Translations under genes and position numbers: made by a program
In this document: one piece after another, positions 16,124 to 22,549 of the stretch
How the letters are laid out: each line of letters opens with the position of its first letter
How positions within the stretch are numbered: the stretch's first letter is position 1
Source of the DNA: Chloroflexota bacterium
Lineage (GTDB): Bacteria > Chloroflexota > Anaerolineae > Promineifilales > Promineifilaceae
Length of the DNA: 64,000 nt
Assembly: GCA_017993775.1 (NCBI GenBank)
Contig: JAGOMA010000017.1
Span: 1-64,000, forward strand
Direction of reading: 5' to 3'
The notes under the pieces: model-generated
Database searches by the model: none
The model's input: only the letters and a program-made list of their open reading frames with translations
Told to the model about the DNA's origin: nothing

Positions 16124-16345
16124 TCCAAATCCTCGGTTTTCGCAGAAACAGGATCTTGAGACAGTCTTCAGGGTTTATTTTTCATTGTCATGATTTTATA
16201 CTGAAAACTGGTTGCTAATCATTTTACCTTACAAGTAATGCATTGATTAGTGATTGTAAGGTTATCACAAGCAATTTGGGTTGTCTACACTATTGTTTTG
16301 TTTATTATACTAAAGTCATGGGTGTGTTTGACTTTCAACGGCCGT
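16124..16345. other. AT-rich intergenic region upstream of the T-box leader
   Basis: The region lies between divergent transcription units. It contains a 9-bp inverted repeat ACCTTACAA/TTGTAAGGT at 16226-16234 and 16254-16262, which could bind a dimeric regulator. A TATACT at 16306-16311 with TTGTCT at 16281-16286 could be a promoter for the T-box transcript, though the 19-bp spacing is long. Confidence 0.35.
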
Positions 16346-16665
16346 TTTGGCATAATGCACCCCAGTTCGATAACAAAAAGCTTTGATGGAGACGAGTAAT
16401 TCGACTCTTGTTTGGCAAGCGAGCCTGTGTGGGTGGAAGGCAGGCACAAACAGGCGGATGAAAATCCCTCCGGAGCCGCTGACTGAACGGCCGTTATGAT
16501 TTATGCCTAGTAAGCTCAGCCGGATTCGCCCCACGTTATCGGGGCCGCGACAATAAACGGCCACGGCCGTCGTTGTTGACCGAGAGCCTGGTTTACGACC
16601 AGGAATTTGGGTGGTACCGCGGAGACTATGCGCCTTCGTCCCATTGGGGATGAAGGCGTTTTTTA
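16346..16665 (+). promoter_or_regulatory. T-box leader (riboswitch), isoleucine specifier
   Basis: The leader holds the conserved T-box sequence GGGTGGTACCGCGG at 16609-16622, whose TGGT would pair with a tRNA ending in ACCA. Upstream, the Stem I end reads GATGAAAATCCCTCCGGAGC (16457-16476); by analogy with other Ile T-boxes the specifier is ATC at 16464-16466. A 12-bp terminator stem with a T-run follows. Uncharged tRNA-Ile should favour the antiterminator and readthrough. Two to three ACGGCCGT palindromes lie inside the leader (16487, 16563). The nearest gene is alaX; ileS is the fourth gene. Confidence 0.85.
16631..16664 (+). terminator. T-box terminator hairpin
   Basis: CGCCTTCGTCCC (16631-16642) pairs with GGGATGAAGGCG (16647-16658) with one wobble, followed by six T. 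It competes with the antiterminator that includes the T-box sequence just upstream. Confidence 0.88.
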
Positions 16666-16699
16666 TTTAGTTTGTTAATCCAGCAGTTTGGCAATCGAA

Positions 16700-16744
16700 T
16701 AGTCGGAGACTACCAGACTACCAGACTAATCGACTACAGGACTA
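16700..16744. repeat. Short direct repeats before alaX
   Basis: The stretch holds direct repeats of CCAGACTA (16713-16720 and 16721-16728) within an irregular run of AGACTA/CGACTA units ending at the alaX start codon. It resembles the TAAAGAC repeats at 12527-12548 in style. It replaces a clear ribosome-binding site. Confidence 0.5.
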
Positions 16745-16748
16745 AAAA

Positions 16749-17459
16749 ATGACTGACTTGCTTTTTCAGACGGATGCGTATTTGCAGGAGTTCGCCGCCC
16801 AGGTGACGGCCCAGGTGGAAGGGGGCGTCTTGCTGGATCGCACTGCTTTTTATCCGGGCGGCGGCGGGCAGCCGCATGACACAGGGACACTCACGGCCGT
16901 TTCCACCACCTACCTCATCACCAAAGTTGCCAAAGTAAACGGCCAGGTAGTGCATTTTATGGCTGGCGAGCTGCCGGCGGTCGGCACGGCCGTTACCGGC
17001 CAGCTTGATTGGACCCGGCGTTACCAGCTCATGCGCACCCACACAGCCATGCACATTTTGTGCGGCGTGGTCTGGCGCGATTATGGCGCGCAGGTGACGG
17101 GCGGCAACATGGACCCGCTGCAGGGGCGCATGGATTTTGAATTTGAGACCATGCGGCAGGAGTTGGTGGCGGAGATAGAAACGGCCGTGAACCGCGAAGT
17201 AGCTGCGGCGCGAGACGTGCGCGTGCAAATTTTGCCCCGCGAAGAAGCCTTCCAAATTCCTGACCTGATCCGCACCAAAATTAATTTGCTGCCAGCCGGC
17301 ATTGCCGAAGTGCGCACGGTGGAACTGGTGGGTCTGGATTTGCAGGCCGATGGCGGTACGCACGTCGCCAATACCCGCGAAGTGGGCCGGATGCGCATTG
17401 TCGATTACAAGAGCAAAGGCAAAATCAATAAACGTATCTACGTGGAGTTAGAGGCTTGA
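16749..17459 (+). CDS. alaX: AlaX-type alanyl-tRNA editing protein
   Basis: The 236-residue protein matches the second additional domain of AlaRS and free AlaX proteins. It shows 'DRTAFYPGGGGQPHDTG', 'RTHTAMHILCGVV' (zinc-binding HxxxH), and 'GGTHVANTREVG' with a further His, plus a Cys usually found nearby replaced in part. AlaX hydrolyses Ser-tRNA(Ala) or Gly-tRNA(Ala) in trans. It is the first gene after an isoleucine-type T-box, so its expression should follow tRNA-Ile charging. Short repeats precede the start. Confidence 0.88.
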   Translation: MTDLLFQTDAYLQEFAAQVTAQVEGGVLLDRTAFYPGGGGQPHDTGTLTAVSTTYLITKVAKVNGQVVHFMAGELPAVGTAVTGQLDWTRRYQLMRTHTAMHILCGVVWRDYGAQVTGGNMDPLQGRMDFEFETMRQELVAEIETAVNREVAAARDVRVQILPREEAFQIPDLIRTKINLLPAGIAEVRTVELVGLDLQADGGTHVANTREVGRMRIVDYKSKGKINKRIYVELEA

Positions 17460-17480
17460 GCAAAAGCGAGAGTACTCTTA

Positions 17481-17504
17481 CTCGCTATCGCTATCGTTAT
17501 CGCT
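17481..17504. repeat. TATCGCT microsatellite before a start codon
   Basis: Four near-identical CTATCG(C/T) units run directly into the ATG at 17505. No ribosome-binding site is visible in or before them, so translation of the downstream gene may be coupled to alaX or use a different signal. Confidence 0.6.
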
Positions 17505-18188
17505 ATGAGATTCATTATTAAAGAGCAGCCTTATGAGCAGGTGATCGCCGCGGGCCAGTACCGGTATGAGCGAGACGGCCGTGCCACCGGCGCGGTAGAG
17601 CATTGGCGGCTGACGGCCGTTACCGATGGCTACCAGTTTTTGCGCGTAGACCTGGACGCCCGCGCTGCGCCATCAGGACACACGTACCTTTACCATGCGG
17701 TCGTCAATCCCGATGGCGCCATTGAGCGGCTGAAGTATCGCTTTTGGGGCGGCAGGCTGAATATTGTTGGCGATGTGGTGCTGGCGGAAACGGCCGTTAC
17801 CGCCACGCGCACCGTCAACGGCGAAGATTCCGAGCAGGTAGTAGACCTGCCCAAAGGTTACCGCTTCTGGTTTCCGTCGGTGGCCGGGCTGCATTTTGTG
17901 GGTTGGCGCGGGAATGAACCGCAAACGGCCGTTACCCTCAACGGCCAGATCGGCGGGCCGGACACGCTGGCGGTGCAGGTGGTGGACTTTGAGTATTTTA
18001 TGCTGATTACCGATTTCATCGAGATGACCGCAGCAGGTAAAGTGCGCTCCTATTCGCCCTGTAAATTGTCTTGGGGCGAGGGTCACTGGCGCATTATTCA
18101 GCGCAGCGCGGAAAATGGCTGGCCGTTGGGTATGATGAGAGATGATGGGTTAACGGCCGTGGCTGTGCAGCATATTCAATACGAATGA
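17505..18188 (+). CDS. Unknown protein in the T-box operon
   Basis: The 227-residue soluble product is rich in beta-strand-forming segments with many Trp, Tyr and Phe ('EHWRL', 'YRFWGGRLNIVG', 'YRFWFPSVAGLHFVGWRG'). No signal peptide or membrane helix is seen. It could be a lipocalin- or glycolipid-binding-like beta barrel, but I do not recognise the family. It lies between alaX and the Abi gene. Its coding sequence carries five ACGGCCGT palindromes, so it is a long-term resident of this genome. Confidence 0.65.
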   Translation: MRFIIKEQPYEQVIAAGQYRYERDGRATGAVEHWRLTAVTDGYQFLRVDLDARAAPSGHTYLYHAVVNPDGAIERLKYRFWGGRLNIVGDVVLAETAVTATRTVNGEDSEQVVDLPKGYRFWFPSVAGLHFVGWRGNEPQTAVTLNGQIGGPDTLAVQVVDFEYFMLITDFIEMTAAGKVRSYSPCKLSWGEGHWRIIQRSAENGWPLGMMRDDGLTAVAVQHIQYE

Positions 18189-18200
18189 AATAGGTGAATA

Positions 18201-18980
18201 ATGTCTCTTTTTGACGATCCTGTGGATGAATTTGGAGAATTAAAAACCGATTACGATAAAGCCGAATTTTTGCAAAATTTGTTAGTGGCTCGAGCTACAG
18301 GCAATTCAGGGAATAGTTGGGAATATCAGGAGCTACGAAGATATTTTCTTGATAATTCTCAAACAAAAGATTTGATTCCAAGGTGGGTTCGTGTAAATAG
18401 GGACCTCGCCCAATTTTGGAGTTTTATTCAGGCAAAATTCGGTACTTATGCCGAAAGGCGAAAATTCATCTGGGAAGAGTTTTTCCCTTTATTAGAGTAT
18501 TTGGAAAGTAAACAAGCACTTCCACCGGAAAAATCGATATCGGAGCAACTACGGAAATTTGATTATGAGGGAGTACATTTTGCTTGGCAAATAGCGCTGG
18601 AACGTAAAAAAAGCGATCCTGAAGGGGCGATTACACTATCTAAATCTATTTTGGAAAGTGTTTGTAAGCATATTCTTGACGAAAAAGCTGTGGAATACGA
18701 TGAAGATAAAACCGATTTGCCACAACTTTACAAATTGGTAGCAAAGGAATTGTATTTGTCACCAGATCAACATTCGGAGCAAATTTTCAAACAAATCCTA
18801 GGGGGATGTGCGTCGGTGGTTTATGGACTAGGCTCTTTAAGAAATAAGTTTGGTGACGCTCATGGAAAAGGAAAATTGAAAATAAAACCAGCACCCAGAC
18901 ATGCTGAGCTATCTGTTAATTTAGCAGGCTCGATCGCATTATTTTTGGTTGAGACTTTCGAAGCGAGTAAATATGTCTGA
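18201..18980 (+). CDS. Abortive infection family protein with Abi-C C-terminal domain
   Basis: The 259-residue cytoplasmic protein has a C-terminal half typical of the Abi_C family (PF14355): 'DPEGAITLSKSILESVCKHILDE', 'DLPQLYKLVAKELYLSPDQHSEQIFKQILGGCASVVYGLGSLRNKFGDAHGKGK' in parts, and 'APRHAELSVNLAGSIALFLVETF'. The N-terminal half is helical and less conserved. The family is linked to phage-exclusion loci, but the mechanism is unknown. The gene is clearly more AT-rich than its neighbours and has no ACGGCCGT copy, pointing to recent arrival in the T-box operon. It starts 12 bp after the previous gene. Confidence 0.82.
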   Translation: MSLFDDPVDEFGELKTDYDKAEFLQNLLVARATGNSGNSWEYQELRRYFLDNSQTKDLIPRWVRVNRDLAQFWSFIQAKFGTYAERRKFIWEEFFPLLEYLESKQALPPEKSISEQLRKFDYEGVHFAWQIALERKKSDPEGAITLSKSILESVCKHILDEKAVEYDEDKTDLPQLYKLVAKELYLSPDQHSEQIFKQILGGCASVVYGLGSLRNKFGDAHGKGKLKIKPAPRHAELSVNLAGSIALFLVETFEASKYV

Positions 18981-19055
18981 ACTGCTGGTTCAATTGACAA
19001 TATGTCAAATTACTACGGCCGTTCCCCGGCCAAAACCTGTGTGATCGATAAAAAC

Positions 19056-19077
19056 TGTGGGAACGGCTGTTCCCACA
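19056..19077 (+). repeat. Hairpin upstream of ileS, degenerate copy of the palindrome
   Basis: TGTGGGAAC (19056-19064) pairs perfectly with GTTCCCACA (19069-19077) around a GGCT loop. The centre AACGGCTGTT differs by one base from AACGGCCGTT. It lies about 40 bp before the ileS start, in the 137-bp gap after the Abi gene. A full ACGGCCGT lies at 19014. Confidence 0.55.
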
Positions 19078-19117
19078 TCCAAAATCCGAAATCAACCATC
19101 CGAAATGGAGAAAAATT

Positions 19118-22100
19118 ATGGGCTTTAAAGACGTATCCAACAAAGTAGACTTCGTAAAACTCGAGTATGACATCCTCGATTACTGGCAAAAAACCGACGC
19201 GTTCAACGAGCTGCGCCGCCTGCGTGCCGAAACCGAAAAAGAGTATGGCATCTTCAGCTTTATCGACGGTCCCATCACCGCCAACAACCCCATGGGCGTC
19301 CACCACGCCTGGGGCCGCACCTACAAAGACCTTTACCAGCGTTACCACGCCATGCAAGGCAAAAACGAACGCTGGCAAAACGGCTTCGATTGCCAGGGTC
19401 TCTGGGTAGAAGTCAACGTCGAAAAGCGCCTCGGCTTCAACAGCAAGCGGGAAATCGAGAAATTCGGCCTGGCTAAATTTACCAATGAATGCAAACATCA
19501 GGTCCTCAACTATTCGGCCGTGCAAACCGAACAATCGATCCGCCTGGGCTACTGGATGGATTGGAACGATCCGGCCGTGCTGCGCCGCCTGCGCGACATG
19601 CTCACCGAAAACCCCTACCAGCAGGTGACGGTGCAAGGACCCAAAGGGCCGGTCACCGGCACGGTGGAACAGGTGGTCGGCCAGTTGGGCATGCCGCAAA
19701 TGGGCGGCTCCTACTTCACCTTCAGCGATGAAAACAATTATCAGATCTGGGCCTTCCTCAAAAAATGCTTCGATCGCGGTTGGGTTTACAAAGGGCGCGA
19801 TGTGATGCCCTGGTGCGCCCGCTGCGGCACCGGCATCAGCCAGCATGAAATCGTCACCGAAGGCTATCAGGAAGTCACCCACGAATCGGTTTATGTGCGC
19901 TTTCCCATCACAAACAAACCCCAAGGGTCTTCTGAGACCCTTGGGGTTTCCGATAAGGAAGCCCTGCTCGTCTGGACCACAACCCCCTGGACGCTCACCA
20001 GTAACGTCGCTGCGGCCGTGGGGCCAGAATTGGTCTATGTCAAAGTCCAGGCCGAAGATGGCTGGACCTACTACCTGGCTGAAGAAGCGATGAAACAATC
20101 GCTCACCGGCAAGGTGGAAGTGGTGGGCAAGCTCAAAGGCGAGGATATGCTCGGCTGGGAATACAGCGGCCCCTTCGATGAACTGCCGGCCGCGCAAACT
20201 GCCTTTGCCGAAATGAATTACACCCACCGCGTCATCGCCTGGAAAGAAGTAGGCGCCGATGAAGGAACGGGCATCGTCCACATCGCCCCCGGCTGCGGCG
20301 CGGAAGACTTTGGGCTGGGCAAAGAATTTAATCTGCCGGTCATCGCGCCGTTGGATGAAAACGGTATCTACAAAGACGGGTTTGATTGGCTGGTCGGCCA
20401 ATCGGCCCATGATGTGGCTCCGGCAATCTTTGAGAATTTGCATGGCAAGGGCGTGTATTACCGCAAACAGCGATACGCCCACCGCTATCCGCACTGCTGG
20501 CGCTGCGGCAGCGAGCTGGTGTATCGGCTGGTGGATGAATGGTTCATCAGCATGGGCGAGTTGTATGACAAACCGCGCGAAACGGTAACGGCCGTTGAAA
20601 AAGCCGCCAGCTTCCGCTACCAGATCATGGAATCGGTCGATCAGGCCAACTGGTATCCCAGTTTTGGCTACGACCGCGAGCAAGATTGGCTGCGTAACAT
20701 GCACGATTGGATGATCAGCAAAAAGCGGTACTATGGCCTGGCGCTGCCCATCTACGAATGCCAGGAATGCGGCCACTTCCACATTGTCGGCAGCCGCGAA
20801 GAATTAAAAGAACGCGCCATTGAAGGGTGGGACGAATTTGATGGCCACACGCCGCACCGGCCGTACATCGACGGCGTCAAAATCGCCTGTCCCAACTGCG
20901 GCCGGCCGGTCGAGCGCATCAAGGACGTGGGCAATCCCTGGTTGGACGCGGGCATTGTGGGCATCAGCACCATCCACTACAGCGCCGACCGCGAATATTG
21001 GGAAAAATGGTACCCGGCCGACTGGATCAGCGAAAGTTTCCCCGGCCAGTTCCGCAACTGGTTCTATAGTTTGCTGGCTCAAAGCACGCTCATGGCTGAT
21101 GGCGTAGGACCGTTTAAGAATTTATTCGGTTACGCGACGCTGCAGGCGGAAGACGGCCGTGACATGCACAAATCCTCCGGCAACATGATCGAATTCAACG
21201 AAGCGGCCGACAAAATGGGCGCCGATACCATGCGCTGGCTCTACGCCAGCTGCAAACCAGAGCAAAACTTGCGCTTCGGCTATCACGTTGGCGACGATAC
21301 CCGCCGCCGCTTCCTCATCCCGCTGTGGAATGTCTACTCTTTCTTTGTCAGCTATGCCCAATTAGACAACTGGTCACCCACTTCGCATTCCGCACGCCCC
21401 ACTCCGCACTCCCCCAACGCCGCCCACGCGCAGATGGACCAATGGATTGTCGAGCGGCTGGCCGAGACCACTCTGGCCACGCGGACCGCCCTGGATGTGT
21501 ATGATTCGGAAAAGGCGACGCAGCACCTGGAAGCCTTCCTGGACGATCTTTCTAACTGGTACGTGCGCCGGTCGCGCCGCCGGTTCTGGAAGAGCGAAGC
21601 CGACGAAGATAAAAACGCCGCCTACGCCACATTGCATCAGGTATTGGTGGATTATGTAAAATTACTGGCCCCGTTTGTCCCCTTTGTAACAGAGGCGATT
21701 TACCAAAATTTGGTGCGCAGCGTGGACAATAACGCCCCGGCCAGTGTCCATCACTGCTTCTACCCGCAGGCTGAGGCGACCGCCTTGGATCAGGCTTTGC
21801 TGGCAAAAATGCGCCTGGCCATTGTGACGGCCGGGTTGGGGCGGGCTGCGCGCGGCGCGGCTGATGTGAAGCTGCGCCAGCCTTTGGCCAAAGCGCGGGT
21901 CAACGTAGGCAGCTTGCAGGAACAGGCGGATCTGGTCGAATTGGCCAACGTCTTGCAAGAAGAAATCAACGTCAAGGCTATCGAGATTGTTTCAGAAGTG
22001 GGCGAGCTGGTGGATTATAAACTGCTGCCTAATAATCGCGTGTTGGGGCCGAAGTTTGGCAAGGATTTCCCCCGTATTCGCCAGGCATTGGAGTCGTTGG

Positions 22101-22549
22101 ATCCGGCGCAGGCCGCGCGGCAGTTGCAGGCGGGACAAAACCTGGTTGTGGAGCTGGGCGACAAGACGGCCGAACTGACCGGCGAAGATGTGCTGGTGCA
22201 AACGGAGGCGCGCGGCGGTCTGGCGGTGGCCAGCGACAAGGGTGTAACGGTGGCGGTGGATACGCATCTGACGCCTGAGTTGGTTCAGGAAGGGTACGCG
22301 CGTGACCTTGTGCGAGCCATCAACAACATGCGCAAAGATGCCGGTCTGGAAATTTCGGACCGGATAGACCTGGGGTATGTGGCGGATGGCGAAGTGGCGG
22401 CGGCGATGGTGACGTTTGCGGCGTATGTGCAGCAGGAGACGCTGGCCTTAACGGTAACGGCCGTTCCCCTCCCCTCGCCAGATTTTCACCAAACCATCAC
22501 CGTCGGCGACCAGGACATCCTCCTGTCTTTACGCAAAGCGGCCGATTAA
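19118..22549 (+). CDS. ileS: Isoleucyl-tRNA synthetase
   Basis: The 1143-residue class I synthetase has the HIGH-type motif 'NNPMGVHHAWGRT' (residues 56-67), the editing domain with 'LLVWTTTPWTLTSN', a KMSKS variant 'MHKSSGN' near residue 683, and a long anticodon-binding and C-terminal region. Its length and motifs suggest the eukaryote-like type 2 IleRS, known in some bacteria for low mupirocin sensitivity; that is inference. Two short in-frame insertions look like intergenic repeats: a perfect hairpin at residues 267-277 and a 'TPHS'-type tract near residue 756. It is the last gene of the T-box operon. Confidence 0.95.
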   Translation: MGFKDVSNKVDFVKLEYDILDYWQKTDAFNELRRLRAETEKEYGIFSFIDGPITANNPMGVHHAWGRTYKDLYQRYHAMQGKNERWQNGFDCQGLWVEVNVEKRLGFNSKREIEKFGLAKFTNECKHQVLNYSAVQTEQSIRLGYWMDWNDPAVLRRLRDMLTENPYQQVTVQGPKGPVTGTVEQVVGQLGMPQMGGSYFTFSDENNYQIWAFLKKCFDRGWVYKGRDVMPWCARCGTGISQHEIVTEGYQEVTHESVYVRFPITNKPQGSSETLGVSDKEALLVWTTTPWTLTSNVAAAVGPELVYVKVQAEDGWTYYLAEEAMKQSLTGKVEVVGKLKGEDMLGWEYSGPFDELPAAQTAFAEMNYTHRVIAWKEVGADEGTGIVHIAPGCGAEDFGLGKEFNLPVIAPLDENGIYKDGFDWLVGQSAHDVAPAIFENLHGKGVYYRKQRYAHRYPHCWRCGSELVYRLVDEWFISMGELYDKPRETVTAVEKAASFRYQIMESVDQANWYPSFGYDREQDWLRNMHDWMISKKRYYGLALPIYECQECGHFHIVGSREELKERAIEGWDEFDGHTPHRPYIDGVKIACPNCGRPVERIKDVGNPWLDAGIVGISTIHYSADREYWEKWYPADWISESFPGQFRNWFYSLLAQSTLMADGVGPFKNLFGYATLQAEDGRDMHKSSGNMIEFNEAADKMGADTMRWLYASCKPEQNLRFGYHVGDDTRRRFLIPLWNVYSFFVSYAQLDNWSPTSHSARPTPHSPNAAHAQMDQWIVERLAETTLATRTALDVYDSEKATQHLEAFLDDLSNWYVRRSRRRFWKSEADEDKNAAYATLHQVLVDYVKLLAPFVPFVTEAIYQNLVRSVDNNAPASVHHCFYPQAEATALDQALLAKMRLAIVTAGLGRAARGAADVKLRQPLAKARVNVGSLQEQADLVELANVLQEEINVKAIEIVSEVGELVDYKLLPNNRVLGPKFGKDFPRIRQALESLDPAQAARQLQAGQNLVVELGDKTAELTGEDVLVQTEARGGLAVASDKGVTVAVDTHLTPELVQEGYARDLVRAINNMRKDAGLEISDRIDLGYVADGEVAAAMVTFAAYVQQETLALTVTAVPLPSPDFHQTITVGDQDILLSLRKAAD
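19916..19949 (+). repeat. Perfect 15-bp hairpin inserted in frame in ileS
   Basis: AAACCCCAAGGGTCT (19916-19930), a TCTG loop and the exact reverse complement (19935-19949) lie inside the coding sequence. They encode a Gly/Ser-rich stretch between the editing-domain strand 'VYVRFPI' and 'DKEALLVWTTTPW', where synthetases usually have a short variable loop. The sequence resembles the intergenic element at 10695-10752. Confidence 0.75.
21379..21415 (+). repeat. Intergenic-type repeat units inside ileS
   Basis: The stretch contains CATTCCGCACGCCCCACTCC and then GCACTCCC, the complement of the GGAGTGCGGAGTGGGG units at 2124-2216. It encodes Ser/Pro/His-rich residues ('SHSARPTPHSP') between the catalytic-domain end 'SYAQLDNW' and 'MDQWIVERL', where related enzymes have only a few residues. 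Confidence 0.7.

Follow-up and report, generated by a model that had tools for sequence, protein, structure and literature searches.

A tRNA-Ile T-box that probably targets ileS heads an alaX-dufA-ileS operon with variable defense-type cargo in a Chloroflexota bacterium

The window analyzed here, a 64-kb (64,000 nucleotides) stretch of a Chloroflexota genome, contains a T-box leader that is very probably a transcription-attenuating tRNA-Ile T-box (specifier AUC) targeting ileS. It would head one operon of the order T-box-alaX-dufA-(cargo)-ileS, in which an Abi_C-domain gene is a recent passenger. The core mechanism is ordinary; the make-up of the operon is unusual.

The leader was located by a cmscan search of the window. 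The RF00230 match (16374-16646, forward strand; 108.3 bits against a cut-off of 93, E = 5e-23) is aligned over the full length of the model (positions 1-219) and runs from Stem I to the antiterminator. It is preceded on the same strand by a promoter-like site (16328-16356), TTGACT-17-CATAAT with a TG before the second hexamer, which is a consensus match only. The antiterminator (16608-16643, +) carries a UGGUACC bulge at 16612-16618; in its UGGU (16612-16615), the variable base is U, which fits a discriminator A. The intrinsic terminator and its T run occupy 16630-16665 (+). The hairpin itself (16630-16659) has 13 bp and a predicted stability of -24 kcal/mol, and it overlaps the 3' strand of the antiterminator, the two structures being mutually exclusive with 16635-16643 as their common strand. 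The assignment to the T-box class thus combines a score above the curated cut-off, a specifier fitting the gene, and a UGGN bulge with an exclusive antiterminator/terminator pair. The window also contains the palindrome ACGGCCGT, a HIP1-like hyper-abundant octamer with 112 sites in the whole window against 1.2 expected from shuffles. It is present in genes and leaders alike, and lies inside the Ile T-box at 16487 and 16563.

The specifier codon is AUC, the DNA triplet ATC at 16464-16466 (+), in the context GAA-A-AUC-C-CU. This reading does not depend on the covariance model as its sole basis, because the register is fixed by seven further T-boxes of the same genome. Their codons in that register (UCC, ACC, ACC, UGG, UGG, GUC, and CUC) are those predicted by the respective downstream genes, named by eye from their translations: serS, thrS, asd, two trpB-like genes, valS, and leuS. 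An Ala specifier is ruled out by this common register. Among the relatives' leaders of the alaX-ileS operon whose Stem I could be located on its 3' side by a simple pattern, AUC was read in all 34. The sequence-only reading had proposed an Ile T-box with a terminator and an ATC specifier before alaX, and had suggested a covariance-model check of the specifier and a comparison of relatives' leaders; the RF00230 score, the 13-bp terminator, and the AUC register agree with it on each point.

Two of the other T-boxes deserve mention in their own right. The two Trp (UGG) leaders (L004 and L006; contigs C107 and C79 of the same genome) are nearly identical, and each precedes a nearly identical trpB-like gene; the pair stems either from a recent duplication or from duplication in the assembly. 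In the leuS T-box (CUC; L007:1501-1875, corresponding to C45:37838-38212), a tRNA-Ala(GGC) gene is embedded in the leader, where it separates Stem III from the antiterminator, and a tRNA-Ala(CGC) gene lies just upstream. According to ARAGORN and Rfam, the internal tRNA is also found in relatives (L232-L261), and the antiterminator motif follows it by 18-70 bases in 23 of the 25 loci tested. This arrangement is conserved across the family, and maturation of the tRNA would cut the leuS leader.

In T-boxes, the uncharged cognate tRNA stabilizes the antiterminator. For the leader described here, uncharged tRNA-Ile would pair with the AUC specifier, and its NCCA end with the UGGU bulge, favoring the antiterminator over the terminator at 16630-16659. 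With readthrough, RNA polymerase would transcribe alaX, dufA, the Abi_C gene, and ileS, and when little tRNA-Ile is charged, the expression of alaX, dufA, the cargo, and ileS should, we infer, rise jointly. An Ile T-box has been reported for Dehalococcoides, also of the Chloroflexi (PMC2494555). The present leader has Stems I-III, the AUC codon, the UGGN bulge, the antiterminator/terminator switch, and the ileS target in common with such ileS leaders (RF00230; PMC2494555). In known ileS T-box leaders, however, the gene directly follows the leader, whereas here it comes last, behind alaX, dufA, and variable cargo.

Four genes follow on the forward strand: an alaX-like gene (16749-17459), dufA (17505-18188), the Abi_C-domain gene (18201-18980), and ileS (19118-22549). 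The last, the T-box target, encodes an isoleucyl-tRNA synthetase of 1143 aa with a DUF5915 C-terminal domain and starts 2.47 kb after the end of the T-box. Gene order and Pfam matches to alaX, Abi_C, and ileS confirm the earlier description of alaX, an unknown gene, and an Abi-C gene lying between leader and ileS over about 2.5 kb. The genome, 93% complete, gave no other full-length ileS match, and a second copy making that of the operon dispensable was rejected on this account. Between alaX and ileS, no strong terminator was found on the forward strand, and just before ileS there is no consensus promoter; nor did the scan of the 64-kb window return any further T-box above the gathering score, before ileS or elsewhere. 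The earlier reading had named an Ala specifier, or a separate promoter and T-box directly upstream of ileS, as refuting it, and neither was observed. In 31 of the 33 related operons scanned, the leader terminator was recovered, while the gaps gave mostly weak candidates within coding sequence and no consistent terminator. The Abi_C gene begins 12 bases after the end of dufA, with a plausible ribosome site (AGGTGA). Control of the broader operon by tRNA-Ile charging is structurally likely, since the genes are co-oriented behind one promoter and one T-box, with no systematic internal terminators. The 2.5 kb separating leader and ileS nevertheless leave room for a non-consensus internal promoter.

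The 236-aa product of the first gene is a homologue of the alanyl-tRNA synthetase (AlaRS) editing domain, devoid of the aminoacylation domain (C-terminal part of PF01411, PF07973, and PDB matches to AlaRS and AlaX). With AlaX, a group of free-standing editing proteins (PMC3158927), it shares this homology and an HxxxH motif, HTAMH. In contrast to those proteins, all 21 aligned class members have DxxxH in place of the zinc-binding CxxxH (DGGTH for the CGGTH of AlaRS and AlaX structures), Asp201 replacing the Cys, and the gene sits in an Ile-controlled operon. The Cys is retained in a further AlaX-like protein encoded by this genome. The name alaX, given from the sequence, is therefore retained as alaX-like: the homology holds, the zinc motif lacks its Cys.

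The second gene, dufA, encodes a protein of 227 aa conserved in the family, for which no match was obtained in Pfam or PADLOC. Its AlphaFold model is confident (pLDDT 91) and all-beta, and its fold matches, RseB/LolB/VioE-like, have low TM-scores. Almost all complete operons of the window's family have dufA between alaX and ileS; the gene is a family-level addition that joined in the family ancestor.

The third gene, encoding 259 aa, has a GC content of 0.385, against 0.575-0.586 in its neighbors. It is missing from the congener G001, whose IleS shares 97% identity, and from all other family operons examined; relatives of the protein were found in just two other genomes among those searched, and at other locations. 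Its low GC and its absence from the congener mark it as a recent arrival. The protein matches PF14355 (Abi_C) with 81 bits against a threshold of 24, and the AbiJ match of PADLOC covers residues 139-253 only. The earlier Abi-C name is thus kept for the C-terminal half, and with a partial AbiJ match, the product is best called only an Abi_C-domain protein.

Other genes take the same place in relatives. The alaX-dufA gap contains PDDEXK_3 genes, and the dufA-ileS gap contains a BrnT toxin with its CopG antitoxin, PDC-M08A/B (PADLOC candidates), an Mrr type IV restriction gene, or a Schlafen AlbA_2 gene. On a tree of AlaX and the IleS N-terminus, the fewest changes amount to 4 for M08A, 2 for Mrr, 2 for BrnT/CopG, 3 for PDDEXK_3, and 1 for Abi_C, i.e., at least 12 gains or losses over the five cargo families. 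The insertion-prone gap repeatedly takes up genes of the defense or toxin-antitoxin (TA) type, the Abi_C gene being one recent passenger. Defense hot spots are conserved chromosomal positions that take up defense or toxin-antitoxin cargo. Here too, one conserved position takes different genes of this type across related genomes; unlike in those hot spots, the position lies within the operon of an essential synthetase, downstream of a T-box, and holds one to five small co-oriented genes, with no mobility genes recognized. In one relative (G018), the dufA-ileS gap (L226:4707-5030) shows, by eye, only a short broken frame resembling the start of a DUF3800-type gene, as if cargo decayed there too. 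An Mrr_N-type restriction gene also lies on the window's own contig, 3 kb past the end of the window (G000:C58:67165-67425).

It could be supposed that such cargo is kept behind the Ile T-box for a function, in a tRNA-quality and defense regulon in which induction at low Ile-tRNA charging is useful during starvation, exposure to synthetase inhibitors, or infection. At least one defense/TA-type cargo gene is present in 14 of 42 family loci, and all recognized cargo is co-oriented with the operon. Over the 39 family genomes, 5 of 13 M08A matches, 4 of 15 Mrr_N matches, and 1 of 4 Abi_C matches fall within the gap, which represents about 0.01% of the DNA; for the common PDDEXK_3 (about 90 matches), 2 do so. 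The cargo-bearing loci, the M08A and Mrr_N figures, and the repeated gains or losses favor a functional regulon. Part of the enrichment is nonetheless inheritance, and as the survey covered the gaps around dufA only, the same rate may simply reflect how these genomes behave in general. Such cargo is missing from most family operons, the contents turn over quickly, and other cargo (an amidase, a lipoprotein-like protein, and an unknown) is of unrelated kinds. The pattern is also explained by a gap that tolerates insertions beside an essential, expressed gene, so a regulon selected for its benefit is rather improbable. Of the two alternatives in the sequence-only reading, each holds in part. Insertion between leader and ileS applies to the Abi_C gene and, over a longer time, to dufA, but not to alaX. 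The broader tRNA-quality and defense operon stands for its co-oriented structure and its recurring defense/TA genes, but the T-box follows ileS rather than alaX or cargo.

This last point is drawn from the distribution of the leaders. A search of 59 genomes for ileS and alaX placed alaX directly upstream of ileS in many Anaerolineae families, usually with a T-box before alaX. For the linkage itself, 80 alaX loci were drawn from GTDB genomes, nearly all with records labelled Chloroflexota or Anaerolineae, and nine with too little sequence were set aside. Where ileS lay within 2.8 kb, all 25 loci had a T-box upstream of alaX, against none of the 46 without a close ileS (Fisher P = 1e-19, with loci counted as independent and phylogeny ignored). 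In three loci, the T-box lies 0.5-1.1 kb upstream of alaX. In 6 of the 46, ileS lies 3.1-4.1 kb downstream of alaX, and a T-box was not found; a few loci with alaX linked to ileS, such as those of G009 and G053, also have no detected T-box. Where alaX and ileS are apart (G058 and G039), the T-box is at ileS and none was detected at alaX, and G031, G046, and G006 have a T-box and ileS without alaX.

As the first gene behind the leader, and a very well conserved one, alaX might itself be what the T-box mainly serves, for tRNA quality, with ileS under its own control. This is very improbable given the linkage counts, the T-box-ileS pairs lacking alaX, the Ile specifier, and the scan upstream of ileS, which gave neither a second T-box nor a consensus promoter. 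When alaX is apart or absent, it is with ileS that the T-box remains, which makes ileS the target and alaX a long-standing companion. The alaX-ileS pair is class-wide in Anaerolineae, and alaX is an old partner there, not an insert. The suggestion that alaX, dufA, and the Abi_C gene are all recent insertions that separated ileS from its leader, perhaps uncoupling the two, fits the 2.5-kb distance and the clearly recent, low-GC Abi_C gene missing from the congener, but it is hardly tenable, being refuted for alaX by its class-wide adjacency to ileS and for dufA, an older, family-level insertion, by its family-wide presence.

A literature search on alaX with ileS, T-boxes, or Chloroflexi found nothing on this operon, and an earlier description in AlaX or T-box surveys is possible. 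The ileS-targeting operon offers a clear comparative case of a T-box that follows ileS even with other genes standing between. The comparison also brings out an alaX-ileS operon common to the class, whose AlaX is unusual, and a slot behind the T-box that defense-type genes have entered repeatedly. A more speculative, rather improbable extension is that the family keeps this slot in the Ile T-box operon so that uncharged tRNA-Ile, resulting from starvation, synthetase poisoning, or infection-linked tRNA depletion, would raise the expression of restriction, Abi, or toxin-antitoxin genes along with IleRS and the Asp-variant AlaX. If the cargo does respond to tRNA-Ile charging, amino-acid sensing would be linked to defense in these bacteria.
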